A stretch of 64,000 nt of DNA from Planctomycetales bacterium (GTDB lineage Bacteria; Planctomycetota; Planctomycetia; Isosphaerales; Isosphaeraceae). Under the pieces are notes generated by a model. That model ran no database searches. It was not told the origin of the DNA and saw only the letters and a list, made by a program, of their open reading frames with translations. The stretch is taken from positions 1-64,000 of the forward strand of contig DAIDHX010000018.1 in assembly GCA_027451885.1 (NCBI GenBank). The letters run 5' to 3'. The first letter of the stretch is position 1, and each line of letters opens with the position of its first letter. The position numbers were made by a program, and so were the translations under genes. This document shows, piece by piece, positions 9,439 to 54,727 of this stretch.

Positions 9439-9468
9439 TTGCCAGGCTGAGCGCCCCGGCGATAGAAT
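9439..9468 (+). promoter_or_regulatory. Candidate sigma-70-type promoter of the DUF1559 gene
   Basis: TTGCCA (9439-9444), an 18-base spacer, then TAGAAT (9463-9468). The predicted start near 9475 would give a leader of about 34 bases before the ATG at 9509. It lies downstream of the hairpins at 9303-9363, so the DUF1559 gene can be transcribed separately from the giant gene. Confidence 0.45.
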
Positions 9469-9508
9469 TCAAGATCGGCAACTCCTCTTCACGTGGAAAG
9501 GACTGAAC

Positions 9509-10829: not shown

Positions 10830-10851
10830 GCCGCATGCAACCCACCAAGAC

Positions 10852-10888
10852 ACCCCGCGGAACGCCCGAACCCGGGCCTCCGCGGGGT
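10852..10888 (+). terminator. Long GC-rich hairpin between the DUF1559 gene and leuC
   Basis: ACCCCGCGGA (10852-10861) pairs perfectly with TCCGCGGGGT (10879-10888). The loop contains an inner GCCCG/CGGGC stem, so the whole could fold as one long hairpin. No strong T-tract follows (tgtccgttccc). It could terminate the DUF1559 transcript or be part of a leuCD leader, since leuC starts 45 bases downstream. Confidence 0.5.
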
Positions 10889-10933
10889 TGTCCGTTCCCG
10901 GAAAGTCTCTCCCCGAGGACCAATAGACGTACC

Positions 10934-36279: not shown

Positions 36280-36589
36280 AGATGTACCCTCGTGAAACTC
36301 CGCAACCGGTTCAGCCGTCCTTGATCGCAGGTCGCGACGTCGCGCACCAAACTTTTTGAGCCAGCCATGGTTGCACGCTCGCGCCCTGGTTGAAATGATC
36401 TTGATTTTTTTGGGACGAAGGCCCGTCACGCGGAGACGTTCCGTTCGTACTTTGGGTGATATTCCGCATTCCAAGATGCATTCACCCACGAAAGCCGGCT
36501 TGGTGTTTTGGTTAGCGTCAAGTTTTTGATTGCCTGACATTTGGGTTCAAGAAGCACCCGCGGTTTGTTTGAAAATCAGGGAGAAGTCC
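36280..36589. other. 310-base intergenic region between exporter and DUF1549 gene
   Basis: AT-richer than the surrounding genes, with T-runs near 36351 and 36406. It must contain the promoter of the DUF1549-DUF1501 pair, but I cannot single out one -35/-10 pair with confidence. No tRNA, repeat or strong hairpin seen. Confidence 0.5.
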
Positions 36590-38248
36590 ATGACGCAACG
36601 ATGGGCTTGCTGGTCAGGGGGCGTACGTGGCGGGCGAGTTCTGGGGTTTGCGATTGGGCTGGCGTTGTTGCCGTGCCTGGTGCTGGTGTTGCCGGCTCGG
36701 GCGGGCGACGACACCAGGAGCGCCCAGGATTCGGTTCGTACACCGACGTCACTCCCTTACATTGATGAGATGATCGAGGCGGGCTGGAAGAAGGCCAAGG
36801 TTGTTCCGGCCAGGATTTGCAGCGACGACGAGTTCCTCCGCCGGGCGTATCTCGACCTGCTTGGTCGAATCCCGACGGTTGAAGAGGCGCGTGGGTTTCT
36901 CGCGACCAAGGCGCCTGACAAGCGGCCGAAGCTGGTGGACTACCTGCTCAACCATCCTGATTTCTCCAAGGATTTCGCCACGCAGTGGACCATTCTTCTG
37001 ATCGGCCGGGGCCGCCAGGACCGGATGGTCGACCGGACTGCGCTCACGGGTTGGCTGCGCAAGCAGTTCAATGCGAACCGGCCCTGGAACGAGGTCGTAC
37101 AGGATCTTGTGGGGGCGAGCGGTTCGAACAAGGAAAACGGCGCGGTCAATTACATCCTGGCCCACATGGACGGCGACGCAGTGCCGCTGACGTCGCGAAC
37201 GACGCGGCTGTTCCTGGGGCAGCAGATCCAGTGCACTCAGTGCCACAACCATCCCACGAACGAGTGGAAGCAAGACGATTTCTGGGGTATTAACGCGTTT
37301 TTCAAGGGGCTCAAGACCGAGGACGTGACCAAGGCGAACGCGACGGGTCTTGAAGCGTATGACCACACCGAGCTGCACGACGAGCCCACCGAGGAATTCT
37401 CCCGCTTCGAGCGTAGAAACGGCCTCATGGGCGTGGCGTTCCCGAAGTTTCTGGACGGCCGCAAGATCAGCCAGGGGACCGACGTCGTGCGCCGGACCGA
37501 ACTGGCGAAGCTGATCGCCGATCCCAAGAACGACTCGATGGCGAAGGCGTTCGTGAATCGGATGTGGGGCCATTTCCTGGGCCGGGGGTTTGTGAACCCG
37601 GTTGACGACTTCGGCCCGCACAACCCCCCTTCGCATCCCGAGCTGCTCGATCGGCTCGCCGAGGACTTCCAGAAGAGCAACTTCGACGTCAAGGCGCTCT
37701 GCCGCTGGATCACCTCGAGCAAGACGTACCAGTTAAGCGACCTGCGCACCAAGGCCAACGAGAAGGACGAGGGCCTGTTCAACGTGATGCAGCTCAAGCC
37801 GATGTCGCCGGAACAGCTTTTCGATTCGTTGATCACGGCGACCACCTCGCACCGTTCGGGGGTGCGTGAGCAGGATCAGCGGCGGCGCGACGATTGGCTG
37901 CGACAGTTTCTGTTCGCGTTCGCCAACGATGAGGGGGAGGAAACCACAAACTTCCAGGGCACGATTCCCCAGGCCCTCATGATGATGAACGGCGAACTGA
38001 TGAAAACCGCGCTCTCCGGGAAACCGGGCAGCTTTCTGGCAGATGTACTGGCAAGCGCAAGGCGGTCACGCGCGCCGGTGAACTACATGGTCGACTCGAT
38101 TTATCTGGCGTCGCTTTCGCGTTATCCAACCGCGAGGGAACGGCAGTTCGCGCATCACTTCCTGGAGACCAATCCGGATTCCCTGCAAGTGTTGCAGGAC
38201 CTTTTCTGGGCGTTGCTGAACTCGAACGAATTCATCCTGGTGCACTGA
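36590..38248 (+). CDS. DUF1549/DUF1553 domain protein with one c-haem-type CxxCH
   Basis: 552 residues from ATG 36590, supported by AGGGAGAAG upstream; it gives a signal peptide (GGRVLGFAIGLALLPCLVLV). The N-terminal DUF1549 region has DDEFLRRAYLDLLGRIPTVEEA, and the C-terminal DUF1553 region has FVNRMWGHFLGRGFVNPVDD and NPPSHPELLDRLAEDF. C215-TQC-H219 within QIQCTQCHNHP is a possible haem-attachment site. These proteins are hugely amplified in Planctomycetota and nearly always precede a DUF1501 gene, as here (72 bases downstream). Their function is not established; sulfatase-linked polysaccharide use has been proposed from context in other genomes. No Planctomycete cytochrome c (PSD1) domain is seen. 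Confidence 0.93.
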   Translation: MTQRWACWSGGVRGGRVLGFAIGLALLPCLVLVLPARAGDDTRSAQDSVRTPTSLPYIDEMIEAGWKKAKVVPARICSDDEFLRRAYLDLLGRIPTVEEARGFLATKAPDKRPKLVDYLLNHPDFSKDFATQWTILLIGRGRQDRMVDRTALTGWLRKQFNANRPWNEVVQDLVGASGSNKENGAVNYILAHMDGDAVPLTSRTTRLFLGQQIQCTQCHNHPTNEWKQDDFWGINAFFKGLKTEDVTKANATGLEAYDHTELHDEPTEEFSRFERRNGLMGVAFPKFLDGRKISQGTDVVRRTELAKLIADPKNDSMAKAFVNRMWGHFLGRGFVNPVDDFGPHNPPSHPELLDRLAEDFQKSNFDVKALCRWITSSKTYQLSDLRTKANEKDEGLFNVMQLKPMSPEQLFDSLITATTSHRSGVREQDQRRRDDWLRQFLFAFANDEGEETTNFQGTIPQALMMMNGELMKTALSGKPGSFLADVLASARRSRAPVNYMVDSIYLASLSRYPTARERQFAHHFLETNPDSLQVLQDLFWALLNSNEFILVH

Positions 38249-38320
38249 ACCAACACCGCGTCAGACCTGGCCCGGTCCTGTGCCGGGGCGATCTGGAGCG
38301 TCTTCAAGGAGATCGTGGTC

Positions 38321-39604
38321 ATGTGGGAAAACGCGCTTGCAAGCGGGATGACGCGGCGGCACTGGCTGGGGCACCTGGCCGCCACCACGCTGGGGATTCC
38401 GGCGATTCAGTTCTTTTCGTCGCTTGAGGCCAACGCCGCGGCGCTCAAGAAGACGAACCGAAGCTGCATCGTGCTCTGGATGGGAGGCGGGCCAAGCCAT
38501 CTGGACATCTGGGATCTGAAGCCGGATAGCGAAAAGAACGGCGGACCGTTCAAGCCGATCGACACCTCGGCCTCTGGGGTAAAGATCAGCGAGCACATGC
38601 CGCTGACCGCCAAGCAGATGAATCACCTGAGCATCATCCGCTCGCTCGATTCGAAGGAGGGCAACCACGATCGCGGCCGGTATGTCATGCACACCGGCTA
38701 TCCGCCCAATCCCACGGTCGTGCACGCGGGCTTCGGCTCGGTCTGCGCGCTTGAGCTGGGCGAGAAGCTCGAGAACTTCGACCTGCCGCACTGCATTTCG
38801 ATCAACTCACCCGGCGTGGGCGCGGGGTTCCTGGGGATGTCGTACGCGCCGTTCGTGGTTCAGAACCCGAACGCACCGATCGCGAATCTCCAGCCCCCTG
38901 GCGACGTCAACTGGCAGCGGATGCAGCGGCGGCTGAAGATGCTCACCACGGTTGAGGATCAGTTCATCGCCCAGCGCAAGGTGCAATCGGCGTCGGATCA
39001 CAAGGCGATCTACGCCAAGACGCTGCGGATGATGAACTCGAAGTACCAGGACGCCTTCAATCTGAAGGGCGAGCCCGACACGGTGCGCGACGCCTACGGC
39101 CGCGGCTCGTTCGGGTCGGGCTGCCTCATGGCCCGGCGGCTGGTTGAGCAGGGCGTGACCTACGTCGAGGTTTCGCTCGACGGTTGGGACACGCACACGA
39201 ACAACTTCGACGCGTTGTCGCGGCGGCTGTTGCCCGAGCTCGACAAGGGCATGTCGTCGCTCGTGGCGGACCTGGCGAGCCGCGGCCTGCTGGAGACGAC
39301 GTCGATCGTGTGGATGGGCGAGTTCGGGCGCACCCCGCGGATCAACCAGAACGCCGGCCGCGATCACTGGCCGCGGAGCTGGTCGGTCGTGATGGGCGGC
39401 GGCGGCATCAAGGGGGGCCAGATCGTGGGCGCCACCGATAAGGACGGCGTTGACGTTGTCGACCGTCCGGTTGGTGTGATGGACCTGATCGCCACCCTGA
39501 GCAAGGGCATGGGCATCAACGTGGCCACGCAGTACACCACGCCCCGCGGCCGGCCGATGAAGCTGGTTGACGGAGGCGCACCGATCAAGGAGCTTGTCGG
39601 CTAG
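38321..39604 (+). CDS. DUF1501 family secreted protein with Tat-type leader
   Basis: 427 residues from ATG 38321 (AAGGAG nine bases upstream). MTRRHWLGHLAATTLGIPAI near the start is a twin-arginine-like leader, implying export in folded form. The DUF1501 domain is a relative of the alkaline phosphatase/sulfatase fold: CIVLWMGGGPSHLDIWDLKP, the mid EVSLDGWDTHTNNF and MGEFGRTPRINQNAGRDHWP segments contain the conserved Asp/His residues likely to bind metal. It pairs with the DUF1549 gene upstream and is followed by a strong terminator. The substrate is unknown. Confidence 0.94.
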   Translation: MWENALASGMTRRHWLGHLAATTLGIPAIQFFSSLEANAAALKKTNRSCIVLWMGGGPSHLDIWDLKPDSEKNGGPFKPIDTSASGVKISEHMPLTAKQMNHLSIIRSLDSKEGNHDRGRYVMHTGYPPNPTVVHAGFGSVCALELGEKLENFDLPHCISINSPGVGAGFLGMSYAPFVVQNPNAPIANLQPPGDVNWQRMQRRLKMLTTVEDQFIAQRKVQSASDHKAIYAKTLRMMNSKYQDAFNLKGEPDTVRDAYGRGSFGSGCLMARRLVEQGVTYVEVSLDGWDTHTNNFDALSRRLLPELDKGMSSLVADLASRGLLETTSIVWMGEFGRTPRINQNAGRDHWPRSWSVVMGGGGIKGGQIVGATDKDGVDVVDRPVGVMDLIATLSKGMGINVATQYTTPRGRPMKLVDGGAPIKELVG

Positions 39605-39720: not shown

Positions 39721-42700
39721 CTACGCACCCCGGGCGATGGCGATAAACGTCCAGACGCAGGCAGCGGTGAGAACCAGCGGGCCGCCCGCCCAGCCGACGA
39801 GCAAAAGCGCAGCGGCAAGCCCTGCACGCAGGCGGCTCCTGCGCCTGGTGGGCGTCCCCAGCACAACCACGGCAATGAGCAATGTGATTATACATGTGAG
39901 CATAAACAGATCTTTGGCATCGTTTGGACTGGCGGCCACAAGCTCGATCACCGGGGATACCGCCGTCGATTGCGGCAGGCCGGGGATCGACCCGACCAGG
40001 TAGAGGGCGTTTCCAAGCTCGGGGATCCGCTCGGCGGGGCTCGATTCGCTCGCTCCTGTACGCGGCTGCGCCTGGGATTGCGGGTTCTCCAGGCCCAGAT
40101 AAGTGCGTGCGGCGGCGAGGTCGGCCTCGAGCCCCAGGCCGCGCGTGAGCTCTGCCCATTCCACACGTGCAAGCGCAACCATCTCAGCGTCCTTGAGTGC
40201 ACTTTGCGCCCGGGCCGAGCCTGCAACCAGCCGATCCCGCAGAGCGCTCCGGTCCGCGTCTCGCAGAATGAGCTCGTGGTTGACGAGGTAGGAGGTCAGG
40301 CGTTCGTGGTCGCGACTGCTGGAACGGTCGATTCTGGGAAGAAAATCGCGGGTGGCGAGAGCTTGAGCATCGGCACGGGCGAGATCGTAGCGCGCGGCGG
40401 AGACGGCTTCAAGGCTGCCTGCAACGGGAGCCGCGGCGAGAGATCTGGGGGCGTGAATGGCGATGACGGCGGGCGTGGATGCGCCACTGGCTTCTGGGAA
40501 TCGCACCGTCACGCGCTTGCCGCGTGAGCTTCCCTGCGGCGGAGGGGCGGACCAGAGCAGGCCCACTCGCGACGCCCGGGCGGGGTTGACCGGCACCGAC
40601 CAGAGCTCACGCGCTGACCGCAGAGGCGTGGCGGGCGCGCCGTCGACGCTCGCCCACAGGAGTGTGGCGGATTCCGGAAGCAGAAACGCGAACGCACGGG
40701 CATCCGGGGAGACGTCGTAAAACACGCGCCCAAGCTGCGACCGGTCCGCGGCGACGACGACAGCCAAATCCGCCTGCCTCGCCGTCGCCGACTCCTCGAG
40801 CCCCTCGCGGGGAGCGGTTTTCTCCCGCGGCGACTGTACCCGCAAAACCCAGGGCTCATTCACAACGCGAAAGACTCCCACTCGATTCCCCAGGCGCTGA
40901 AACTCCGGCGAGGAGAATCCCTCATTGCGTGCGATCGCCCTGAGACCCACCGAGCTATCGGTCGTAAGTGCGCGACTGGTCGCGTTCAGGATGCTCACAC
41001 GTTCGTCAAGATTGCCAAGACCCAACGGAGCGATTTCGGGATGAACGATTTCACGCTCGGCGGGAAGTGGAATGCTCGAGCGCAGCACAAAGCGCCGAGA
41101 GCCCCAAATTGGGCGCTGCGGCGTGATTGTCCAGAAGGCGGATACGCCCCGCGTTTCCCTGGTGATCTGGAACTCGCCCGCGTCGTGCATCGTCGCTCGC
41201 GCAGCCCAGACCGCCGGCAGCCGAAGATGAATCGCACCGAGGGCTCCTCCAACCACGTCGTAGCGAAGGACAGCGGTCCACTCAGCGGATTCCAGATCAA
41301 TGGCAAGCTGGCTCTCAATGCTTACATTCGTGCGGGGCGGCAGCGAGTCCCATTCCAGCTCACCCAGGCGCGCGGAGTCCTCAACGCGGAATGTCATGCG
41401 GTGCGTCTGGCCAGGCGTCCCGGCCGAGACATTCGATTCCGACGAGATCAGGAGCAGTCCCGGCCCATTGCGAGTCTCGGTTCGCGTGGCGGACGCAAGT
41501 GTAAGGAACGCGCCTTCCTGGGGTTCTTCCCAGTTGATCCAGGGAACCGGGCAGGTCCGTCTGCGCGATCCCACGGCGAGCGGATTCTCGACAATGGGAA
41601 TCCAGCCCTTGACGACCAGGTTGCGCTCACCGGAGACGGGAGCGGGACCAAGCTCGACGGCGAGCCGCTTCTGGTCATCGACCGCCCAGTCTCCCACGCT
41701 GCCGCCAGAGACCTCAGTGACCGACATCCCGTCTGGCAGGCGGCCAACGATGCGAGTGGGCCGGCCCGAGATCTCACCCAGGCTGGCCTCGAGAAGAAGC
41801 GAGAGCCGGCCCGGCTCGATCGAAACGGCGAGCGTGGGCTTGATCTTCAACCGGCTACGTGCGGGGGAGGTCGCCAGCGCGATGGTTGCCCCCTTGGAAA
41901 ACCGCCCCGCGCCGCAGAATGTCAGCGGAGTGTCGGGCAGCCGATCCCAGGCTGCGACGAAGGTCAGGTCTGGCACGATTTCGAGGCCGGGCTGGGCCTC
42001 GAGCCGTCCGACCCAGTCGCCAGGTCTGCGTGCACCCAGGAGTCCGGAATAGCTATCCCAGGCGACTGGCTCAAGCCGCGGCAAGCGGCGAGCCGGTTTG
42101 CGTGCGGCGTCCGCACGGTGGCAATCGATCTCAATGGCTGCGCCGGCGCGCAGCGGAGGATCAACATGCAGGATCCACTCACCTCGCGGGGCGTCTTCCG
42201 TGAGGAACAGGTCATGTGCACCAGGCACGCGCACGCTGCGCGCCACAAGCCCAGGCTCGCGGCCGAAGCGGACAACGGAGATGCCTGCGCCTTCGCGGAT
42301 GGTGAAGCGTGCGCGAAGCCAGTCGCCGGCCGGCGCGGTCTCCCAGAGCAAGAGCCCTTCGCCGGCGATCCGCGGCGAGGACGGCGAAGGCGCTGCGGGA
42401 CGCGACCAGCGCACGTGGATACGATCCATGGGGCCAAGCCAGCCGCTGATCCGCGACTCGCCCTCGCGAGCCAGATTTCCTCGGGACGCGATTTCAATCC
42501 CCGCCGCCTCGGCCGGATCGGTTTCCAGCACGATGCGTGCCGTCGCCACCGCCCCCACCGGCAGGTTGAGCTCCTGGCCGTCGCGATCGGATTGCAAGAG
42601 CCCCTGCCTGCTCAGCACGAGCCGCCTGCCTCGGCCGGGCGGCAGCGAGACCGAGGCCATACGCCCGCCAGGCTGGATCGAGATCAGAGCGGGGGAGCCG

Positions 42701-45700
42701 TCAACCTGCGCCTGGAGCTCACGCGCTTGCGCAGCAGGAAAAACCCAGGCCGAGGGCAACACGCCCGGGACGTCGATCTCAAGCTCGGTTTCGACAAGAC
42801 ACGCCCCTGCTCCAATCCGCCGCAGACGATGAACGGCCGAGCGTGCAACGGGTTCAAGCGTTGCGGAGGACCGCTCAGGATCACTTGCCGCAATCAACCG
42901 GTTGTAATCCACGAGCCGGAGCACCACGCGGTCGAGCCGCCGGCCGGGATCAAATTCGCCTTCGTAGGGAAAGATCGCCAGGATCGCGTTTTGCTCCTTC
43001 GGCTGCTCCGGCCAGACTGCCGCGCGGGTCGAGGAGCTTGCAATAACGGTCACAATCGCGATCCGGAACGCCGCACCAAAGAGCCTGCGGGTGAGCGAGC
43101 TCTCCGTTCTTCTGGGAACGCGGCTCGATGGACGTCCAAGATTTGCCAGCGCCCGGGCCACCTGGTCCCCGAGCGCAGCGCACACACCGCCGAAGCTCGC
43201 AATGGCCAGGTTCGCGAATTGAGCGGGAGCAAACCACGCGAGAAGCAGCATCGCCGCCGCCGCGACGATCACGCCGGCTCGCGCTTGAGGGATCTTCTTG
43301 AGCAGAGCCGCGGCGCTGATCCATGCACTCGCAAGCACCAGCCAGTAAGCCAGGTCCCTGCTCGGTTGCGAATCGAGCTCGATCGCGCAGTCATGGTCGG
43401 GCCAGCCCGCGCGGACAAGCCGCGAGGAGGTCCATCCAGGGGGCCGCCTGAGGCGGTCCGTGGGCTCGTCGCTGGCGGCCGTGCCTGAGCGTGACGTCGG
43501 CTCCGCGCGCCAGCGGGCGACTGTCTGGAACCGGTCCGCCGTATCCGAGCCGCGAATGAGCGTCTGGTTCACCGATCGATTGACCCAGTCCGCCGTGGCG
43601 AGCTCGCGCGCGTCGTCCTCGCTCGTCACGACGATGGTGCCTGCGATCGCAACGGCCGCGAGCCCGTTACGGCTCAGTACCGCCCGTGTCACGGATGCGC
43701 CCGGCTTGACCGTGGCAGACGCCAGCCTGGTCCGCGGTCCGATTCCCGCCGTGTCCAGGCCCAGCCGATCCACAAGGATCGGCGTGACCCCTGCATCAAG
43801 CCGGGTCAGCCAGCCCGAGGCGGTGGACTCGATCGACTCCGAACCAGGTGGAAGCTCAGGCAGCTCGGTCCTTTGTTCGCCCTTGAACCAGCGGGCAAAT
43901 CGCGTGATCCAGGGCCATTCCGCAGCCTGCGGCGGCGCGTGCGTGGACAGCCGATCTTCCGGCTCCGCACCCGCCGGCACCCATCCCGAGCCCCACGCGA
44001 GCAGACCGCGCGAGGGAGCCGTGGCAACATCCCACACGAACGACGCGCACGGCAGATCAAGGCCCGGCAGAATCGGTTCGAGTCGTGCGCCCGGACTTGC
44101 GGCCTGCGGCTCGCTCTCGTAGTCGATCACGAGCGCAGTGGAGCGGAGGGCCGTTGCTTCATCGAGCGGTACACGAAAGCCCGAACCCTCGCGTAGCAAG
44201 GGAACAATGGCGCCATCGCGGCGGACCTGAATCAGCCGGACCATGGGGGGCGGTTTGAGCACGAGCGCGCGGCTTGAGCGGAGACTGGCAACCAGGCGGA
44301 GCCGATGAATCGATCGCCCGTCCGCGTCCACGATCGTGAACAGAAGTGCCTGGCGCACGATGCCTGCGCCTTCAAGCGGGGTGAGCCGCTCGGCGGCGAC
44401 CTCGAGCCGGCCGCCTGGACGGCCATAAGAATAGGCGTGGGTAATACGCCCAGGGGTGGAGGTATCAACGGCCTCGGTTTCAAGCTCGAGTGCGGTGTCG
44501 ATGGGGTTGTCGGCGGGAGCGGTCTCAAATAGGCCTGGGTCGAGCCGGGTGAGGCCCGTCGCCTCGACCCGTGTGCGTGTGCCAAGCGGAGACTCGATCC
44601 GGATTTCGCCGCGAGCCAGAAAGGCTGCAGGCACGCACAGCAAGGGAATCGAGCCGACACCTTCCCAGGCATAGCGCGCGCGGAAGGAGACGCTCCGTTC
44701 AGTCCGGGCAGGAACCGCGAGCGTGAGCACAAGCGCAGAGCCGCCAGCCGGAAAGCCAAGCTGCTGCGCGGCTGGGACCGCCAGCGGGCGTGCGCTGATC
44801 GCTCCCGGCTCGGACTCGTCCTCGAATCGCCAGGCCTCGAAGCCTGATCCCGCACGGTCGATCCAGACTGGCAGTTCCACCACGGAGCTCGATCCCGCCA
44901 CAACACGGACCTTGCCCTCGAGAACCAATCTGCGTGCGGCGGGGTCCATCCTCGCGGTTGAATGAATCTGCACCCAGGGTGCGCGGTCGATGCGCCCGCG
45001 CTCGACGCGAAGCATGGCGTCAGGCGTCAAATAACGCCATTCAAGCGCGGGGCGGGCGTGTGAAAGCGCAGCCTCACCAACGGAATTTGAGCCCGGATCC
45101 AGCCAGGCGACCCCGCGCGCAAGCGTGGGCTCGACGATCGTCTCCGGGTCGACCCAGGCAGCCCAGGACTCGTCCGCTGGGCGAACTCCGAGCGCCCGCA
45201 CACGCGGCATCTCGATGGGACCCCCGCCGCTGCGCTCGACCGATCGCGCCTTGATCAGAAGCCCAAGCCGCGATTTTGCAAGCGCGGTCGCGGGGATTTC
45301 GGCCGTGAACACCGTTCGGCCGCCGGTTCCAGGCCCGAGATGCCAGACCACGGGTTCATCCACGCCTTCGATCGCGGCTTGCTCGGGAATCCAGCCGCGC
45401 GAGAGCTCCACGCTCGCCTCAGCCAGCATGCCCCGGCGAACAGAATAATCAAGCCGGCACTCGAGCCGCGGCGGCGCTTGATCGAGCCGGGCCAGGCCAC
45501 GCACCAGGCAGGATGCATCGACATGCGAGTCTGTGAAGATAAGATCTGCTGGCGATTCGAGAGAGTCGCATTCGAAGGTGACCTTGTCGGTGCCGGCCGT
45601 TCGATCGCCCACGCGCCGGCCGTGCGTGGCGCGGGTCTCGAAGGCTGGGCTCGACTCACCCAGGAGCACGCTGGCAGTTCCGCCGAGCCAGACGGCGGAT

Positions 45701-46740
45701 TTGGGCAGAACGACGGGGATCGGCCACGCACCGGACGCCGGCATGCGGGCGTGCGCGCGTATGACAAGCTCCGCCGGGCTGGTGTTGCCCAGCGCAACCG
45801 TCACCCTGGTACCCGCGCCGTCTCGCTCAACCCGGTAAGAGCGCAGGGCTGATCCGGTCACTGACTCGAGCTCGAGCGCGGGATCGACGCTCAGCTCCAG
45901 CGGCTCGGAATTCCGCGGGTCGAATTCAACGCGGCATGCCGTGGTCCAGTCGGCCAGATCGCCGGCCGCCGTGCCGCGGGCCTTGAAATCGAGAGTGCTT
46001 GCCGAAGTCACCCAGGCGCGTTCAGGTGCGAGCGGCAGACCTGATGCATCAACATACGCGCGAAAGTCAATACCATCCGAGTCGCCCGTGATTTTCCAGC
46101 GCTGGGCGGCGGCCGCGGGCGCCTGGGCCTGGCGTGTGAGCGTACCCAGGGCGCACCTGGGCGTCCAGGCGGCGGGGAGCTCCAGCTCGAGCTCTGAATT
46201 CAGGCAGGCCGGCAGCGCGAGCGGGAGCACCTGGGCGCCCGGGAGCGAGCGGGGGCGAAGCTCCCAATCGATCACAATCGAGCGCCTGGCCCCGTTTGGC
46301 AGCCGCAGGCCGAGCCTGCCCTGATCGGTTGCGAAGAGAAGCTCCTTCGCCGCGGAGCCTGGCAGAATCGCCGGCGACCAGGGTTCGAGTAAGAGATCGC
46401 CGCCATCGGTTCCAGGAGCGAGGACAAGCTCGCTCGAGCCGGCAAGCACCGAGCCATCCCAGCGCGCGCGGTGCCGTGCCTTGATGAGCAAGGGTTGGAC
46501 GCGCGGGTTGCCCGCGGCGAGGCCGATCCGGGCGGCCCGCGCCTCGAATTCCGCGGCTGGCATAACCCGCAGTTCCTCGCCCCGAAACCATTCCGCAACC
46601 CGGTCGGCCGGGGCCTTGATCCGCACGATCTGAGGCCCAGCCCCGCCGCTCAGGACCAGCATCAAAGCCGCGGCCGCGCACAACGCTGCGCGTGCGGCGT
46701 GGGGCGATGCAACGTGAGATCGGAAGGGCTCGTTCGGCAA
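39721..46740 (-). CDS. Giant (2339 aa) secreted/membrane protein made of two fused modules
   Basis: The TTG at 46740 is supported by GGGAGA at the end of the preceding gene; the next ATG would remove part of the signal peptide (AARAALCAAAALMLVLSGGA). Residues 40-1125 are a long series of beta-rich segments with no recognised domain. Membrane helices lie at about 1130-1190 (YWLVLASAWISAAALL, AMLLLAWFAPAQFANLAI). At about 1218-1240 a second signal-like segment appears (LFGAAFRIAIVTVIAS, then AVWPEQPK), followed by another 1030 beta-rich residues and C-terminal helices at about 2280-2339. I read this as two complete modules of the neighbouring 1124-residue protein fused end to end. The location should be periplasmic with inner-membrane anchors. 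Function unknown. Confidence 0.85.
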   Translation of the reverse strand: MPNEPFRSHVASPHAARAALCAAAALMLVLSGGAGPQIVRIKAPADRVAEWFRGEELRVMPAAEFEARAARIGLAAGNPRVQPLLIKARHRARWDGSVLAGSSELVLAPGTDGGDLLLEPWSPAILPGSAAKELLFATDQGRLGLRLPNGARRSIVIDWELRPRSLPGAQVLPLALPACLNSELELELPAAWTPRCALGTLTRQAQAPAAAAQRWKITGDSDGIDFRAYVDASGLPLAPERAWVTSASTLDFKARGTAAGDLADWTTACRVEFDPRNSEPLELSVDPALELESVTGSALRSYRVERDGAGTRVTVALGNTSPAELVIRAHARMPASGAWPIPVVLPKSAVWLGGTASVLLGESSPAFETRATHGRRVGDRTAGTDKVTFECDSLESPADLIFTDSHVDASCLVRGLARLDQAPPRLECRLDYSVRRGMLAEASVELSRGWIPEQAAIEGVDEPVVWHLGPGTGGRTVFTAEIPATALAKSRLGLLIKARSVERSGGGPIEMPRVRALGVRPADESWAAWVDPETIVEPTLARGVAWLDPGSNSVGEAALSHARPALEWRYLTPDAMLRVERGRIDRAPWVQIHSTARMDPAARRLVLEGKVRVVAGSSSVVELPVWIDRAGSGFEAWRFEDESEPGAISARPLAVPAAQQLGFPAGGSALVLTLAVPARTERSVSFRARYAWEGVGSIPLLCVPAAFLARGEIRIESPLGTRTRVEATGLTRLDPGLFETAPADNPIDTALELETEAVDTSTPGRITHAYSYGRPGGRLEVAAERLTPLEGAGIVRQALLFTIVDADGRSIHRLRLVASLRSSRALVLKPPPMVRLIQVRRDGAIVPLLREGSGFRVPLDEATALRSTALVIDYESEPQAASPGARLEPILPGLDLPCASFVWDVATAPSRGLLAWGSGWVPAGAEPEDRLSTHAPPQAAEWPWITRFARWFKGEQRTELPELPPGSESIESTASGWLTRLDAGVTPILVDRLGLDTAGIGPRTRLASATVKPGASVTRAVLSRNGLAAVAIAGTIVVTSEDDARELATADWVNRSVNQTLIRGSDTADRFQTVARWRAEPTSRSGTAASDEPTDRLRRPPGWTSSRLVRAGWPDHDCAIELDSQPSRDLAYWLVLASAWISAAALLKKIPQARAGVIVAAAAMLLLAWFAPAQFANLAIASFGGVCAALGDQVARALANLGRPSSRVPRRTESSLTRRLFGAAFRIAIVTVIASSSTRAAVWPEQPKEQNAILAIFPYEGEFDPGRRLDRVVLRLVDYNRLIAASDPERSSATLEPVARSAVHRLRRIGAGACLVETELEIDVPGVLPSAWVFPAAQARELQAQVDGSPALISIQPGGRMASVSLPPGRGRRLVLSRQGLLQSDRDGQELNLPVGAVATARIVLETDPAEAAGIEIASRGNLAREGESRISGWLGPMDRIHVRWSRPAAPSPSSPRIAGEGLLLWETAPAGDWLRARFTIREGAGISVVRFGREPGLVARSVRVPGAHDLFLTEDAPRGEWILHVDPPLRAGAAIEIDCHRADAARKPARRLPRLEPVAWDSYSGLLGARRPGDWVGRLEAQPGLEIVPDLTFVAAWDRLPDTPLTFCGAGRFSKGATIALATSPARSRLKIKPTLAVSIEPGRLSLLLEASLGEISGRPTRIVGRLPDGMSVTEVSGGSVGDWAVDDQKRLAVELGPAPVSGERNLVVKGWIPIVENPLAVGSRRRTCPVPWINWEEPQEGAFLTLASATRTETRNGPGLLLISSESNVSAGTPGQTHRMTFRVEDSARLGELEWDSLPPRTNVSIESQLAIDLESAEWTAVLRYDVVGGALGAIHLRLPAVWAARATMHDAGEFQITRETRGVSAFWTITPQRPIWGSRRFVLRSSIPLPAEREIVHPEIAPLGLGNLDERVSILNATSRALTTDSSVGLRAIARNEGFSSPEFQRLGNRVGVFRVVNEPWVLRVQSPREKTAPREGLEESATARQADLAVVVAADRSQLGRVFYDVSPDARAFAFLLPESATLLWASVDGAPATPLRSARELWSVPVNPARASRVGLLWSAPPPQGSSRGKRVTVRFPEASGASTPAVIAIHAPRSLAAAPVAGSLEAVSAARYDLARADAQALATRDFLPRIDRSSSRDHERLTSYLVNHELILRDADRSALRDRLVAGSARAQSALKDAEMVALARVEWAELTRGLGLEADLAAARTYLGLENPQSQAQPRTGASESSPAERIPELGNALYLVGSIPGLPQSTAVSPVIELVAASPNDAKDLFMLTCIITLLIAVVVLGTPTRRRSRLRAGLAAALLLVGWAGGPLVLTAACVWTFIAIARGA

Positions 46741-46743
46741 GGG

Positions 46744-49700
46744 TCATTCTCCCGAGCGCGACTCCGCCCTGGCGTAGTCGATGGTGGTCGAGGTGCGGAC
46801 CCGAATTTCGGTCGAGCCTTCCGAGCCCACGGCCGAGGCGCGATCGAGCGACGAATCCGCGGTCGGCCGGATTGTTCGCCCGCTCGGCTCCGAGGGCACG
46901 ATCGCCCGCGCCCGGGCCAGCCTGCGCTCGATCAAGAGCCCGAGCAGGCTGAGCACGAAGCCCAGAAACGACGATTGCAGGAGCAGCACGACCTCGCTGG
47001 GTGCGAACAGGGCAGCGCTCGCGGCCGCGAAGCCAAGAGCCGCAAGCGCAAGCATGTGAAAGCGGATCCGCGCGAAGATGGCTGCGAACCCCGCCGCGAG
47101 TACAAGCCCCGAGCACAGGGCAACGAGGGCCGCCCGGGACCAGATGCGGGGCGAGAACGGAACGGGCTCAAGCGCGCGGCTGAAGACAAGCCTGCGAGTA
47201 TCATCGCCATCGTCCGCGGAGGCATCGTCGACCACAACGCGCGAGGACGAGCCGACGACCCAGTCGAGCAGCGCGGCTGCGCTTCGCAGGGGCTGCCGCC
47301 GCCAGGCCACGCGCTCGAAGACCCAGTGATTCAGATCGGTCCAACCTGGGGGAGTTCCGACCAGCTCGCGATTGGCGGGGATGCGCACTTCCCAGATACT
47401 CTGCAAAACGACGCTGCCGCGCGCGAGCCTTGGGGCGGTCCAGCTTGACCGGGGCGCGGCGGAATCGTAGCCCAGCTCGACGAGCACGGGCACAGCACGC
47501 TGGTTGCTTGCGAGCCGCAACCGGAACTGGCTGATTGCGTCCCCCTGCTCGACTGCCTCCGCCGGCCGGCCGTTGATCCTGGCCTCGAGCAAGCGGGCGT
47601 CCTCGGGCAGCTCGAGGGTGATCTCGGGCAAGCGGGATTCAAGCTGGAGCCATGCGCGGTGCGATGTTGAATCGGCCCAGATCGAGGTACGAATGAGCTG
47701 CCGGGAGACAACCACGTCAGGCAAGGGTGCGGGGATCTCGGCGCGGATCGAGAAGTTGAAGGGGTGCGAGACGGCCGCGGTGGTTGCCTCGGCGAATTCG
47801 ATTGGTGCGCCCGAACCTTCCTGTTCAGGCGCGGGGTCCACGCGTGTCCAGGCGGAATCGGCGGAGTCGAGATGAAGGTCGGGATCGAGCTCGAGCATGA
47901 CGTGGGTGGGGCCGCTCGCGCCGTCGATTGTGGCGATGCGGGGCGCGTGTGCCGAGCGCGGGCTGGCGTCAAGCGGCGGCTCGAACGGCAGCTTGGCCCG
48001 AAACGCGAGCCGCAACGACTCGGTGGCAGGCTGGGCGAATGTGAGCCGCCAGCGGGCGCCCCCGTCGCTCGTCTTGCCCAGATCTTCCTTGCGCTCGACT
48101 TCCTGTTCCAGAATCTCCCAGCGATCGCCGATCTCAGCGGGGACGGTGATCTCGATCGCGCGCACGATGCCATGCCGGATCCGCAGCCGTGTCTGCTGGA
48201 GCAAGTCAAGACCCTGCCGCGTTGCACGTACGTTGAGTCTGGCGTCCTGGATGAGCTCGCGGGGCCGGCGTGTGAGCTTCAGCGACACCGTGCTCGCCCC
48301 CGCCGACAATCCCAGCAACACAGGCGCGCCCAGCCCTTCCTCGACCGCGAGCGGCTTCATCCAGTCGCGGGGCCTTGCGTCGTCGCCAAATTCTGGTTCG
48401 CTCAATCGAGGAGTCGCGGCGGGATCACCCTCGACTTCCACGAGCAGCGACCGCGCTGGGTGAATTGCGAGCCGCGCTGCCCCACGCGCAGCCGCCGTCG
48501 TCACGAGACCCAGCAAGACCGGACCTGAGCCTGGAATCGACTGCCGCGACCGGACCACCAGCGTTACGTTCTTCTGTTCGCGGGCCGCCGCGCTTAAGCG
48601 GATACGCAGCGGCCGCACGCCGGACCGCGCGTCGCGATTGTTCGCGGGAGGATTCGCCAGCTCGATCGCCTCCGCGGGGCCGATCGAGGTGATCTCGAGC
48701 CCAGGCGCAACCTCGAGCTCCAGATCCTCAATCCGGCCTCGGACCGGCTCGAGAATGATACGGGTTTCGCTTTCGGCGAGCTCCGGTCGCAGCTCCACGA
48801 AGGCGGTCGATCGCGCCAGGTAAAGCGGCGGCGAAGATTCGATCCCCAGCTCGAGCCGGAACGGCTGGTCGCGGAACTCAAGCGCCAGGTGCGTGTCCGG
48901 CCGAGCGCGAAGCTCAGCGGGCAGCTTCTGCGGATTGATGCGCCGGAGCCCTGACGCGGCGGCTACACTCACCCACAGCTCCGCGCCGTGGACCACGCTC
49001 ACCGCACCGGTTTGCCGTTTGGCGTGGCGGAGCGGAAATCCCTGAAAACGCAGCTTGAGCCCGTCCCCCTTGCTGATCGCCCTGCGCGTCTTGATCATCA
49101 CCCGCGCGACGCCACCGGGGCGGAGCGGGTCAGGCAGGCGGATCTTGAGCGCATGTTCCTCACGCGTGCGCTCAAAAGTCGGCTCAGCGGCGGGATCGTC
49201 GAGCAGCCGGGTCTCGATCACCTCGTCCGCGTCATCGAGACGGAATTCGAGCTCGCGCGCCACTCCGCGCACCGAGCGGATGGCCCAGGCGGCCTGAGTC
49301 GTCGCCTGGTCGAGATCGAGCTCGATGGCCACGTCTCCCTCGGCGGTAAGAACCGGGGCCAGACCCAGCTCGCGGTCTCGTTTTGTCGACCAGGAGGCTT
49401 CGATTCGGGAACGGGGCGAGAGCCGAGCGGAAAGTCTGCGTCCCTTGCCGCCGGGCACGGGGGAAAGTCCGTAATCTTCATTTCCCGCGACCAGCACATC
49501 CGTTTCCTCGTCGGGGAAGTCGAGCTCGAGGGAAGTCGAGGCAGCTTCGGGCGTGGCCAGGGTGATCGACCGGCGGGCGAGACTTGAGATCACGTCGGCG
49601 CGGAGTGCGACCTCGATCTTGTGCGTGCCAGCGCCTTCGACCAGGACCTCCCAGCGCCTGTCTGGGGTCATACGCACGGGGAGATCGCGATCGGCTTCGC

Positions 49701-50118
49701 GTGCGGCTGAGATTCGCAAGTCGTCGAGCCGAATCGAGGTCCAGACCGGCAGCTCGCCCTTGACGGCAATCGCGAGCTCGAGCTTGAGATCGGCAACATC
49801 TCCCTCGATTCGCCCATGCACGGCGACCGATTCCACGGCGGAGCGTGGTTCGGATTTGCCGCGGTTGCCGCGGGGCGCATCCACCGCGAACGCCTCGGGC
49901 TTCACGATCGCGAAATCGGGATCAGCGATCTTGCGCCAGAGCTCGGCAAGATCCTTCGGGCTCACGATCACATACCAGGGCAAGGGAGCGGAGGCCGAAG
50001 CGGAATCCGCGCTGGCCGGGCCCGGGCGTGCTTGCCTGGGATTCGCGCGAGGATCATCCGCACCCGCCGCGACGGCGAGCACGAGCGTGGCCAGCAGCCC
50101 GCGTACGATCCTCCTCAT
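46744..50118 (-). CDS. Large (1124 aa) secreted protein with C-terminal membrane helices
   Basis: Start at ATG 50118, giving signal peptide MRRIVRGLLATLVLAVAAGA; upstream in-frame starts would put 23 residues ahead of it. Residues 50-990 are beta-rich with many Arg/Glu/Asp and no recognised family. Hydrophobic helices cover about 993-1065 (AALVALCSGLVLAAG, AALFAPSEVVLLLQSSFLGF), followed by a 60-residue hydrophilic tail. The helix pattern x-FAP-x-L-x-SF-x-G matches that in the middle of the downstream giant (WFAPAQFANLAIASFGG), which points to common origin. It is the second gene of a FecR-like, 1124-aa, 2339-aa series, and its stop codon is followed by one codon and then the TTG start of the next gene in the same frame. 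Confidence 0.85.
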   Translation of the reverse strand: MRRIVRGLLATLVLAVAAGADDPRANPRQARPGPASADSASASAPLPWYVIVSPKDLAELWRKIADPDFAIVKPEAFAVDAPRGNRGKSEPRSAVESVAVHGRIEGDVADLKLELAIAVKGELPVWTSIRLDDLRISAAREADRDLPVRMTPDRRWEVLVEGAGTHKIEVALRADVISSLARRSITLATPEAASTSLELDFPDEETDVLVAGNEDYGLSPVPGGKGRRLSARLSPRSRIEASWSTKRDRELGLAPVLTAEGDVAIELDLDQATTQAAWAIRSVRGVARELEFRLDDADEVIETRLLDDPAAEPTFERTREEHALKIRLPDPLRPGGVARVMIKTRRAISKGDGLKLRFQGFPLRHAKRQTGAVSVVHGAELWVSVAAASGLRRINPQKLPAELRARPDTHLALEFRDQPFRLELGIESSPPLYLARSTAFVELRPELAESETRIILEPVRGRIEDLELEVAPGLEITSIGPAEAIELANPPANNRDARSGVRPLRIRLSAAAREQKNVTLVVRSRQSIPGSGPVLLGLVTTAAARGAARLAIHPARSLLVEVEGDPAATPRLSEPEFGDDARPRDWMKPLAVEEGLGAPVLLGLSAGASTVSLKLTRRPRELIQDARLNVRATRQGLDLLQQTRLRIRHGIVRAIEITVPAEIGDRWEILEQEVERKEDLGKTSDGGARWRLTFAQPATESLRLAFRAKLPFEPPLDASPRSAHAPRIATIDGASGPTHVMLELDPDLHLDSADSAWTRVDPAPEQEGSGAPIEFAEATTAAVSHPFNFSIRAEIPAPLPDVVVSRQLIRTSIWADSTSHRAWLQLESRLPEITLELPEDARLLEARINGRPAEAVEQGDAISQFRLRLASNQRAVPVLVELGYDSAAPRSSWTAPRLARGSVVLQSIWEVRIPANRELVGTPPGWTDLNHWVFERVAWRRQPLRSAAALLDWVVGSSSRVVVDDASADDGDDTRRLVFSRALEPVPFSPRIWSRAALVALCSGLVLAAGFAAIFARIRFHMLALAALGFAAASAALFAPSEVVLLLQSSFLGFVLSLLGLLIERRLARARAIVPSEPSGRTIRPTADSSLDRASAVGSEGSTEIRVRTSTTIDYARAESRSGE

Positions 50119-50279
50119 CCGGGTGACATACTCCTCGGTTACCACGATCGACCGATTCCCGTCCCAGGGCCAGGCGGAGGCGGTCAATCGGGTGTCACGG
50201 ACGGCGCCAAACCCACCGTCATCCTAGCAAATTACGGTCCTGCTCTCCACGCTGCGAACCAGGGGCAAAGCGGACTCGC

Positions 50280-52301
50280 CTAACGCCCCTTGCCTGTCGC
50301 GGCCTGAGCCTTCTCCTGGGTTTTCCGCGCGATGTCCCGCCAGGCGGCCAGGCCGCGTCCCTCGGGATGGTCGGGGTCGTAACCAAGGTTATCGCGTCCC
50401 GTCAGATGCATCAGATCTTCCAGGGCCAGCTCGCGGAGGCCGATCGATTCCTGCTCAGGAGCAAGCAGGGAGGCCAGCTCGGTGAGCAGCTCGGGATTGC
50501 TGGCCAGCTCCCGGGGGTGGCCCTCGATCATGCGTGCGACAAGCAAGCCGCGATCCTCGCCGAATTCTTCCGCGAGCTGGTCGCGCATGCGAGCGGCCGC
50601 CTCGGGCCCCAGGCCCAAAACCTCCCGCGCGGCGGCGATCGCAGCCTTGCGCGTCACGGGGTCGTTCTCGCGTGAAAAGAGCGGCGTGAGCAGCGAATAA
50701 TCGCCGATCGACTTCACCGCCCAGACGGCCAGCCGCTTGATCTCCGGGCGCTTGTCGTCGATGGCGGCGACGATCTCGGCCATGATCGGCCGGTCGGGCA
50801 CAATCATCTTGTAGAAGCTCTCTGCAAGCTGGAGCACGTACGGAGGCTGCGGGCCGAGCGTGGCCCAGGCGGGGGGCGCGTCGGGCGAGCCGCGCTCGAT
50901 CTTCGTCCCCCGCGCGATGTGCGCGGCGTTGGTCACCGTGAGACGCTCCCGCGCATCGCCGAGCCCGAGCGTCACTTCGCCTTCCACACAGTAGACCGCC
51001 AGCGGCGGTGAAGGCTCAACATAGTGATCATCGAGCCTGCGCACGGCCCGTTCCAGACCGATTACGCTTTCCTGGGCGGCCGCGATGGCGAGCGATCGCG
51101 CAGGCGTGCCAACCTGGAGCGTCACGCCCGCGGGAAGTCCGACAACCAGACGGCCGTGCACGAGCTCGATCGTCTGCGCGGCGTCCGCCGGGGCGCTCTG
51201 GAGCCGGATCTCCGTGTCGCCCACAAGCCCGACCCTGAGTCCGCCGAGCGCGAGCTCGGCGCGGAACGGGTCGAGGCAGAGGATCCGGTCGAGCCGCCCG
51301 AGCGAGGTCTTCGCCGTCAGCCGATTCCACTGCCGCTCCTCGTTATCGTAGCGCAAAACCAGCACCTGCGCTGGGTCAAGCACACCAACCCTGGGCCTCG
51401 GTCGGGGCGTAGGCGCGGGACTGGCAACCGCGGGCTCGCCCCTGGTCTCGGGCTTTTCCTCGGCTGCCGGTGCGGGCTTCTTTTCCATCTTGGACGAAGC
51501 CAGATCGGTGGCGGCGGAAGGCTGCGGATTCGGCGGATTTCCAACCGCAGAAGCATGCTCCTCCGCGCCAGGGGTTGGAGCCGGCTGCGGGCTGGGCGAA
51601 GTCTCCGGCAAACCAGAGCGTGCTTCCGCTCCCGGAGCCCCGGCCAGAGCGCCCGGATCTGGTTTCGCCGCTTCAGCCACGACCGCGGCCGGCTTGCCCT
51701 TCGTCTCAACCCGGAATGCGAGCGGCGACGGCTGCGACGTCACACTCCACCACGCCGACCACACGGCCACAACCCCGAGCGCCAGACAGACCGCAAGAGG
51801 TGCAAGCCGCTGCACAACCGACCGCGTCCCCGGCTGATCTCCAGCCCATTCCAGGAGCGAGCCCGACACCGATTCGCCCGAGTCATTCGATCCCGCCCAC
51901 GCTCCCGCAACCTTGGCCTCGCGCCCCTTCACAAGCTGATACATCCGCAACCGCGCTTCCGGCGGCACCTTCGCCTTCTGGCCCAGCAGACTCAGAATCT
52001 GATGCACACTCGAGACCTCGGCCAGATTCACGTCCGAGGTCAGACACTTCTTCTCATATTCCCCCACAGCCTCGGGATCGAGCTCATTGTCGAGGTAGCT
52101 CGCCACAATGTTCGGATCCGTGCCTTCCGGGCCGGAACTGCTGGGCGCTGTCAGCCTGCGCTGGCGAGTCACGCGGGCAATTCGCTCGGCCAGATCACGC
52201 GCGAGCGGGGTCTCCTTCACCTGGATCCCAATCTCACGCACCTGGGAAGGAGGCAATGTATCGTCGAGCCAGGCCAGGAGCGTTCGGAGCGTGAGTCGCA
52301 T
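50280..52301 (-). CDS. Membrane protein with FecR-like and HEAT-like regions
   Basis: 673 residues from ATG 52301. Residues 1-160 are cytoplasmic and include SYLDNELDPEAVGEYEKKCL, a pattern seen in planctomycete anti-sigma-like proteins. One membrane helix lies at about 163-183 (LAPLAVCLALGVVAVWSAW). A Pro/Ala/Glu-rich linker (190-300) leads to a beta region resembling FecR (LVGDTEIRL, ELVHGRLVVGLPAGVTL, YCVEGEVTLGLG), and then alpha-helical HEAT-like repeats at about 500-600 (RPEIKRLAVWAVKSIG, DPVTRKAAIAAAREVL). This suggests sensing of an envelope signal and passing it inward. It heads the series of giant secreted proteins, 161 bases upstream. No sigma factor gene is present, so regulation of one is only an inference. 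Confidence 0.8.
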   Translation of the reverse strand: MRLTLRTLLAWLDDTLPPSQVREIGIQVKETPLARDLAERIARVTRQRRLTAPSSSGPEGTDPNIVASYLDNELDPEAVGEYEKKCLTSDVNLAEVSSVHQILSLLGQKAKVPPEARLRMYQLVKGREAKVAGAWAGSNDSGESVSGSLLEWAGDQPGTRSVVQRLAPLAVCLALGVVAVWSAWWSVTSQPSPLAFRVETKGKPAAVVAEAAKPDPGALAGAPGAEARSGLPETSPSPQPAPTPGAEEHASAVGNPPNPQPSAATDLASSKMEKKPAPAAEEKPETRGEPAVASPAPTPRPRPRVGVLDPAQVLVLRYDNEERQWNRLTAKTSLGRLDRILCLDPFRAELALGGLRVGLVGDTEIRLQSAPADAAQTIELVHGRLVVGLPAGVTLQVGTPARSLAIAAAQESVIGLERAVRRLDDHYVEPSPPLAVYCVEGEVTLGLGDARERLTVTNAAHIARGTKIERGSPDAPPAWATLGPQPPYVLQLAESFYKMIVPDRPIMAEIVAAIDDKRPEIKRLAVWAVKSIGDYSLLTPLFSRENDPVTRKAAIAAAREVLGLGPEAAARMRDQLAEEFGEDRGLLVARMIEGHPRELASNPELLTELASLLAPEQESIGLRELALEDLMHLTGRDNLGYDPDHPEGRGLAAWRDIARKTQEKAQAATGKGR

Positions 52302-52441
52302 GGCGTCGTCCTCGTCAGCAAATGGCGAATCCAACTCGATCTCAACCGCGTGAGTTCGAGCCCGCTTCGCCGCTCTACCTATATGTGTGCCTCGCCAGAC
52401 GTTGATCCGTCGAACTTCCACGATTTTTTTTGGGAAAACGC

Positions 52442-54727
52442 TCACTTCGTTCCCGGCGAACGCGTGTCCAGACCGCGCACGCCGGAGCGGCCACGGAATC
52501 GATAGAGCCGAAACGCCGGGTCATGCTCCTTCTCTCCATAGAGCAGCTCGAAGCGGTCCGGCCTGGCGTCTGCCCATACCCGCTCGATCGGAAAGCCCTG
52601 GGCATCGGCGACATTGTGCGGGCCTTCGCCCACGTTGACGCGGGTGGTCACCAGCAGGGTCACGCCCTCGGCCTCGAGGTTTTCGAGCCAGGCGTCGAGA
52701 TCAGGATGAAGCCGATCCCAGCCCGGCCGAGGATTCGGCCACGTGTGCTCACCCTGGGCAATCGCCGCGCGGTGGTAATCGTGCAGCAGCCAGTGGCGAT
52801 GGCGGTCGATGTTCACATATCGCACCTGGTTGCGCAAACCTTCGCCGAGCAAGAAGTATGGGAGATTGGTGCCCGCATAGGCCACGGTTGTGCCCCGCGG
52901 TCCGGACCAGTAGTCGAGGTTCAGCCAACCGCGGAAGAAATCGGGGAAGGGCGCGTAGAATCGGATCCGTTCATCGTGGACGGTCGCGTAAACATCGAGT
53001 ATTCCGGCTGCGCTCCAGATTAGAAGAGCCAGCCCTGCGGCGAGTGCTCGGCGCGAGGGGCGTGTGGCGTGCATCGCCCAGCCGGCCGCCCACACTGCCG
53101 CGGCCGAGGCGGCGATCAAAACCGCCAGGCTGCCAAGAGGCGCCAGGGAAGCCCTTTCAGGGCTGGGCGCGACCGTACGCGAGAGCCTCTGAAGAAACGG
53201 CACGGGAGCCTCGACGGCGTTGGGAATCAGTGGAGAAAGGTCCCAGGGGATGGCAGACTCAACTGCGGCGATCGGCCACGTTTGGGGTGTCCAGAGATGC
53301 AGCGCCAGCAGCCCTGCGGCGAGTGCTCCCAGCACCCGGCTGCGCTCCAGGAACAAGGCCAGGGGCGCGGCGGCAAACCCGAGCGCCTGGAGCATGAATC
53401 GCTGCTGCGTTCGGTAAGGGATGAACGCCCAGTAAAAGCCCACATTCACGATGGCGAGCAGGGCAAGCCCGGCCAGAAGCATCCGCCGCGGTTCGCCGCC
53501 GCGACCCAGCACCGGCCCGGCGAGCGCGAAAACAAGCGCTGCAATCCATGCAGGCGCAAGCCGGGGATCGAGCACGGCGAGCATGATGTCGCCCAGGGCT
53601 CTCCAGTTCCCAGCAGGAATGTAGTACGGACTGGCGTGCATCGCCTCCGGTCCATACCAACCCTCAAGGAATGTGTGGCCGAAAAGTCGAACCGCGAGCG
53701 GGTAAAGGGGATTCCCCGTCAAAAGCGCATTCCTGGCGAACCAGTACCCGGCGGTGACGAGCGGCGTCAAAAGAAGCATCAGAAGCCGGCGGATCTGGCC
53801 GCGCCTTGAGCCTGGCGATCGGAGAACAATCCCTGCGCCGAACAGAAGCAAAGGCGGGATAAACACCAGTCCGACGGCCTTGGTTCCAAGCGCAAGCCCG
53901 GCGGCGAGCCCCGCGAGACCCAGTTCCGACCCCCGCTCGGGATCGTTGGCGAATCGCACGAGGAAGTAGGCCGAGAGCATCTGGCCGGCGATGAAGATGG
54001 TGTCGACGTTCGGCGTGGCGGAAAACACCAGGAGTGGCGTCGAAGTGATGAACCAGCAGGCGGCGACCACACTCGAAGCCCGTTGCGCGCCCAGATCGCG
54101 GGCCATTCCGAACGCGGCAAGCGCGGCGATGAGCAAAAACGGCGCCTGGCCCGCCCGCGCCAGGCGATCACCGCCCCAAACTGTCATGAGCCAGGTGAAC
54201 CAGAGGTCGCCGTTCGCGGGAAAGTAGGTCGCGGCGTTCTCTCCAAACGGGGCGGCAACGAGCTCCAGGCTCCCCGCGCGCATCCACCGCGCGGCGAAGT
54301 AGAGATGATAAATCGGGCCGTCGCTCATCACCCGGACGGCAAGCATGAGCGCCTGGAACAACAAGGGCGCGGCGGTGGCGAGCACGAGCACGAGGACAAT
54401 CCGCGTCTGCCACGGCCAACCTCTCTCGGACGGAGGAGACTCGCCCCGCGAAGCGCGCGGCTCAGGCGCGAGACGCCCGAGCAGAAAGATCGGGATCGCA
54501 ACGATCCAAACTCCGCTGCGCGAGATCCCCGCGCATGCTGAAAGCGCTTCCAGCCCCAGTGTGCTCACGGTCCAGAAGAGGATCGCCCCCGCAAGCCAGC
54601 CGGGGAGCCCAGCCGGCTGCCCCAGCCATCCCCGCGCGATCCGCATGCATCCCACGCCCAGAACGGCACATGCTGCGAGGCCAGGAAGCGCGCGCCAAAT
54701 TTCCCCAACCACCCCCTGCTCAAACAA
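52442..54727 (-). CDS. Large polytopic membrane glycosyltransferase-like protein (GT-C type)
   Basis: 761 residues from TTG 54727. About 12-14 hydrophobic helices run from residue 15 to 560. The first large external loop contains VMSDGPIYHLYFAARWMRAG, whose Asp fits the acidic position of GT-C transferases that use lipid-phosphate sugars, and SATPNVDTIFIAGQMLSAY resembles the family's next loop. The last 160 residues are a soluble domain (DYWSGPRGTTVAYAG, VRYVNIDRHRHWLLHDYHR). It lies 140 bases ahead of the FecR-like gene on the minus strand and may be in one transcript with it. Acceptor unknown. Confidence 0.82.
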   Translation of the reverse strand: MFEQGVVGEIWRALPGLAACAVLGVGCMRIARGWLGQPAGLPGWLAGAILFWTVSTLGLEALSACAGISRSGVWIVAIPIFLLGRLAPEPRASRGESPPSERGWPWQTRIVLVLVLATAAPLLFQALMLAVRVMSDGPIYHLYFAARWMRAGSLELVAAPFGENAATYFPANGDLWFTWLMTVWGGDRLARAGQAPFLLIAALAAFGMARDLGAQRASSVVAACWFITSTPLLVFSATPNVDTIFIAGQMLSAYFLVRFANDPERGSELGLAGLAAGLALGTKAVGLVFIPPLLLFGAGIVLRSPGSRRGQIRRLLMLLLTPLVTAGYWFARNALLTGNPLYPLAVRLFGHTFLEGWYGPEAMHASPYYIPAGNWRALGDIMLAVLDPRLAPAWIAALVFALAGPVLGRGGEPRRMLLAGLALLAIVNVGFYWAFIPYRTQQRFMLQALGFAAAPLALFLERSRVLGALAAGLLALHLWTPQTWPIAAVESAIPWDLSPLIPNAVEAPVPFLQRLSRTVAPSPERASLAPLGSLAVLIAASAAAVWAAGWAMHATRPSRRALAAGLALLIWSAAGILDVYATVHDERIRFYAPFPDFFRGWLNLDYWSGPRGTTVAYAGTNLPYFLLGEGLRNQVRYVNIDRHRHWLLHDYHRAAIAQGEHTWPNPRPGWDRLHPDLDAWLENLEAEGVTLLVTTRVNVGEGPHNVADAQGFPIERVWADARPDRFELLYGEKEHDPAFRLYRFRGRSGVRGLDTRSPGTK

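Follow-up and report, generated by a model that had tools for sequence, protein, structure and literature searches.

Gene organization of the A-BC locus

The window, i.e., the whole stretch of 64,000 nucleotides that was analysed, carries on its minus strand two neighbouring genes, A and BC, which together encode three modules (A, B and C), with two associated genes, D and E, on their upstream side. The features are as follows.

Gene A, 46744..50118, minus strand: 1124 aa, with a signal peptide, about five beta-sandwich domains and three C-terminal transmembrane helices
A/BC spacer, 46741..46746, minus strand: TGA (the stop of A), then CCC, followed by the TTG that opens BC
Gene BC, 39721..46740, minus strand: 2339 aa, TTG start, two modules in one chain
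Module B, 43090..46740, minus strand: BC residues 1-1217, with an N-terminal hydrophobic segment, a beta ectodomain to about residue 920, an insert and a helix cluster
Module C, 39724..43089, minus strand: BC residues 1218-2339, with a signal-like segment, a beta ectodomain, a helical bundle (898-997) and C-terminal helices (1055-1119)
B-C junction, 43000..43360, minus strand: helix cluster plus signal-like segment, of predicted topology
Gene D, 50280..52445, minus strand: membrane regulator with anti-sigma-like, FecR-like and HEAT features, found upstream of A in most Isosphaeraceae; an associated gene outside the core
Gene E, 52442..54727, minus strand: glycosyltransferase of the PMT type, lying upstream of D in Isosphaeraceae; likewise associated and outside the core

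The open reading frame of gene A spans 46744-50187 (minus strand, 1147 aa), and its likely start is the ATG at 50118, which gives a protein of 1124 aa whose signal peptide, counted from this ATG, is MRRIVRGLLATLVLAVAAGA. The TTG start of BC at 46740 is preceded, seven bases upstream, by GGGAGA. Re-reading of the sequence confirmed the coordinates, lengths, common frame and A/BC spacing given in an earlier note on this DNA. As A and BC lie in the same frame with one TGA between them, they might be regarded as a single gene broken by a sequencing or assembly error, but this is extremely improbable, since a stop separates A from the next module in every complete locus examined and BC has an N-terminal hydrophobic segment of its own.

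Homology of the three modules

Modules A, B and C are ancient paralogues, each of about 1120-1217 aa. BLASTP among A, B (residues 1-1217) and C (1218-2339) gave nothing significant (best E 0.10), while HHalign comparison of family profiles, built from 22-26 members for each module, matched all three pairs collinearly: A-B with Prob 99.8 and E 2.5e-30 over 839 columns, A-C with Prob 99.7 and E 1.3e-25 over 796 columns, and B-C with Prob 99.1 and E 1.3e-18 over 790 columns, the identity between modules in these alignments being 15-17%. Control profiles (reversed, column-shuffled and from four unrelated neighbouring families) reached a Prob of at most 8.8. The proposal of three repeated modules was thus borne out, while the claimed resemblance between the helix regions of A and BC proved insignificant by itself (Prob 18 for A-B, 1.6 for A-C and 8 for B-C), so that module homology rests on the beta ectodomains. 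The silence of BLASTP and of the helix regions would fit unrelated beta-rich proteins that are alike only in composition and membrane helices; that reading is refuted, and has next to no probability, given the collinear matches (E 1e-18 to 1e-30 against controls below Prob 9) and the fact that, in a locus outside the class (L191), each of the three separate genes is hit by the A profile alone, at 6e-74, 7e-42 and 1e-32. Paralogy within giant genes can therefore escape pairwise search, yet be recovered by family profiles.

Domain anatomy and predicted topology

Each module consists of about five beta-sandwich domains of about 175 aa and typically three C-terminal membrane helices. Self-comparison of A detects repeats about 176 residues apart (274-835 versus 450-1024, E 1.7e-15). 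Modules A and C were modelled with AlphaFold (pLDDT 77.7 and 78.3, respectively), and long hairpins recur near residues 116, 279, 455, 644 and 825 in the A model (numbering of the 1147-aa frame) and near 81, 241, 413, 586 and 770 in the C model; the former ends in three helices (1018-1095), and the latter in a helical bundle followed by three helices. Module B has a module-specific insert at about 920-1110, between its beta ectodomain and its helix cluster.

The hydrophobic segments of A are the signal peptide and three at the C-terminus, while BC has one near its N-terminus (18-36), a cluster inside the chain (1129-1173), a signal-like one (1220-1238) and a further cluster at the C-terminus (2278-2329). 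From these segments, an inner-membrane position is predicted for the helices and a periplasmic one for the ectodomains, with the B-C junction crossing the membrane an even number of times. As four crossings would hold both ectodomains on one side, what had been described as a second signal-like segment within BC is better taken for the fourth and final helix of the link between B and C. Moreover, A has a conserved tail after its last membrane helix (46744-46900, minus strand), GSEGSTEIRVR here and VGSDDSTAIRxR in the family consensus, which the predicted topology would place in the cytoplasm. The tail motif is a possible binding motif for a cytoplasmic partner.

The site between the B ectodomain and its helices varies between lineages. 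In one locus (L222, 6378-7997, minus strand) the B-module insert holds a DUF1559 (SBP_bac_10) domain (E 3.7e-21), and in L192 the same place is occupied by a segment that is pilin-like by eye, with no Pfam match. A reading of the B insert as similar to STN (secretin/TonB short N-terminal) domains was made by eye, found no support in Pfam and was rejected.

Distribution and gene boundaries in Planctomycetota

The earlier note regarded the set as lineage-specific, which is contradicted by its distribution: the A profile matches 155 of the 199 genomes of the window's class (E<=1e-3), and relatives are present in other classes of the phylum, where 55 of 199 phylum genomes are matched at E<=1e-5. 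Of the 59 relatives searched, 42 matched A, 29 matched B and 28 matched C. Both A and BC are present in the Isosphaeraceae loci of Singulisphaera acidiphila DSM 18658, Paludisphaera soli and Aquisphaera insulae, and BC is one open reading frame in every Isosphaeraceae locus read completely. The usual arrangement in other families of the class is an A gene with a giant of about 1.8-2.9 kaa behind it; HMMER missed some of these giants, and in most of those the modules were recovered by profile comparison, with weak matches in L123 and L128.

The order A, B, C is kept, with A and BC adjacent and often with overlapping start and stop codons. Comparison of gene boundaries shows a fused BC as the rule and three separate genes in two lineages outside the class (1128, 1237 and 1138 aa in L191; 1202, 1419 and 1470 aa in L192), and these separate B and C genes support the B-C fusion that had been suggested. 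No fusion of A with BC was seen among the loci examined, and the TGA plus one codon between them is thus not a fusion in progress. In other genomes, A and the next gene are arranged either with an overlap of the nTGA type or with a gap of 0-86 nt; the start of the giant, or of the second gene, overlaps the stop of A as nTGA in 24 of 45 other loci, so A and BC are probably translationally coupled.

Some lineages have two modules only (L195-L197, L202, L203, L226 and L227). One genome (G021, locus L107) has an A-like gene of 1323 aa with no giant next to it, which shows that A can be retained when BC is not its neighbour; this may be a natural loss or move of BC.

Evolution of the module set

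A tree of 118 modules sorts by position (A, B or C) and not by organism, with 5 label changes over 104 modules of 36 loci; 500 shuffles never gave fewer than 39. The three clades of one locus type (A, B and C) are supported at 0.95, 1.0 and 0.99, and the order of families is much alike in each, from which it follows that the triplication predates the families of the class. The same module kinds occur in other classes, which suggests that it also predates the radiation of the phylum. In a second locus type, only A forms a supported clade, and the deeper order is therefore less certain. Some genomes (G042, G058) have both locus types, which makes duplication of the set as a unit probable. Tandem duplication, as proposed in the earlier note, is thus upheld by profile homology and by the module tree, but a recent origin is not, since the positions were already distinct before the families of the class diverged. 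For the B-C state in L191 and L192, the module tree does not separate fusion from fission. Taken jointly, this account of the anatomy and evolution of the A-BC set is held with very high confidence.

Fold and family comparisons

Ost1/ribophorin I (RPN1) is a non-catalytic subunit of the eukaryotic oligosaccharyltransferase and holds the substrate beside the STT3-type catalytic subunit. Modelled independently with AlphaFold, A and C have the same best-matching folds, in agreement with their being copies of one module, and by Z the best match of both is Ost1/ribophorin I (Z 14.7 over 317 residues for A and 15.9 over 421 residues for C). The Ost1/RPN1 alignments cover residues 113-452 of A and 411-762 of C, with Z of 13.8-15.9 and an rmsd of 15-28 Å over two domains, and good superposition is thus confined to single domains; the high rmsd most likely reflects differing domain orientations. 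Integrin alpha chains also score against the models and head the Foldseek list for C, and part of the Ost1 match may therefore be generic beta-sandwich stacking. At its N-terminus, Ost1 carries a pair of similar luminal beta domains (PMC7226087). Like the modules, it combines tandem lumen-facing beta domains with a membrane anchor and has no catalytic site. It differs in having two domains and one transmembrane helix, whereas the modules have about five domains and usually three helices and are triplicated, and the likeness is one of fold only, with no detectable relation in sequence: Pfam Ribophorin_I (PF04597) had no match at E<=10 in 21 genomes, including the window's own, and the A, B and C profiles found neither Ost1 nor anything credible among PDB sequences.

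The N-terminal non-catalytic beta domain of M1 aminopeptidases (LTA4H, PepN, tricorn F3) also shares the single-domain fold at Z 13-14, matching the A model with Z 14.3 at 3.5-3.6 Å over 159 residues and the C model with Z 13.4 at 2.6 Å over 140 residues. In contrast to these enzymes, A, B and C have no peptidase domain, no HEXXH and no M1 Pfam match; Peptidase_M1_N (PF17900) matches elsewhere in the genome and nowhere in A or BC. The invariant residues of the modules are mostly structural, which together with the absence of HEXXH argues against an enzyme, while some conserved charged residues, e.g., D61 and H87 in C and H71 and E505 in B, could be functional. Pfam and NCBIfam searches with the modules and profiles found no family matching A, B or C.

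In two papers on planctomycete genomes (PMC5177795, PMC5352709), planctomycetal giant genes (>5 kb) are counted by size, and BC, at 7 kb, falls in this size class. In the literature covered, which is a partial selection, no description was found of the A/BC family, its three modules or its conservation across the phylum.

Genomic neighbourhood

Genes D and E are regular neighbours of A and BC only in Isosphaeraceae, and neighbours vary elsewhere, so the context gives no clear function. The gene D family is characterized by HEAT matches, and a few of its members also match zf-HC2 and FecR. The PMT-type glycosyltransferase adjoins A/BC only in Isosphaeraceae and one f7 locus. Neighbours in other families include inositol monophosphatase, PGI, SNF2 helicase and ParA-like genes, among others, with housekeeping genes upstream. 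Outside the class, a VWA-YfbK_C protein is encoded directly upstream of the module genes in several loci (L193, L202-L204, L215, L226 and L227); it has a zf-HC2 match in L202, and in L215 and L227 an ECF sigma factor comes before it.

Proposed function and alternative explanations

A non-catalytic periplasmic scaffold is the probable role of A-BC, while specific handling of clients, by analogy with Ost1, is a tentative suggestion. Combining these elements, the best overall explanation, to which we give about an even chance, is that A and BC form one conserved three-module assembly that is membrane-anchored, non-catalytic and client-binding. The two proteins would be made together in about equal amounts and would assemble into a single complex, anchored in the inner membrane, whose three arms reach into the periplasm. 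Rather than acting as an enzyme, it would hold, guide or check envelope or secreted clients, much as Ost1 holds its substrate; a signal might pass to the cytoplasm via the conserved tail of A. The "envelope machine" of the earlier note is a plausible hypothesis.

The three arms could also act as a mechanical spacer from the inner membrane to the peptidoglycan or outer membrane across the enlarged periplasm of planctomycetes, with no clients, and the tandem beta-sandwich arms, the membrane anchors, the lack of a catalytic motif, the weak matches to integrin ectodomains and the wide conservation of A/BC are all consistent with such a tether. We consider it unlikely, as no wall-binding domain, whether OmpA-like, peptidoglycan-binding or of another known kind, is found by Pfam, the single domains are a good fit to the Ost1/M1 type and several polar residues are conserved. 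Alternatively, the ectodomains may sense the envelope and signal via the tail of A or via the upstream anti-sigma-like gene D, an idea favoured by the anti-sigma/FecR-like features of D, by the conserved tail motif and by another lineage in which the genes are preceded by an ECF sigma factor and by a VWA-YfbK_C protein that matches zf-HC2 in L202; since neighbours change between families and neither D nor a sigma factor is a constant partner, a sensor seems quite improbable.

A more far-reaching version of the client-binding assembly is an ancient three-arm platform of Ost1/ribophorin I-type domains, at which proteins that have just been exported, and may be glycosylated, are received or checked at the inner membrane. 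This is a long shot; if true, Planctomycetota would have, through homology or convergence, a bacterial counterpart to the side of the endoplasmic reticulum that handles substrates.

Planctomycetota have an unusual, enlarged periplasm and divide without FtsZ. The A-BC set is large, uncharacterised and without a Pfam or NCBIfam match; most genomes sampled from the window's class carry it, and it probably arose before the lineages of the phylum separated. Its fixed three-module, membrane-anchored assembly is a concrete candidate for part of this biology, and the Ost1 fold link supplies a testable idea. In Planctopirus limnophila, 108 essential genes shared among planctomycetes are hypothetical or DUF genes (PMC10632474).

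Other features of the window

Genes of the DUF1549/DUF1553 and DUF1501 types (36530-39604, plus strand) lie convergently downstream of BC, an arrangement seen in about 12 Isosphaeraceae loci. The window also has a second giant open reading frame (2186-9241, plus strand, 2351 aa), which has no Pfam match, shows no similarity to modules A, B or C, and has an N-terminal segment that is pilin-like by eye. It is followed downstream by a gene for a DUF1559 protein (9374-10813) and then by an aconitase-family frame (10835-12346).
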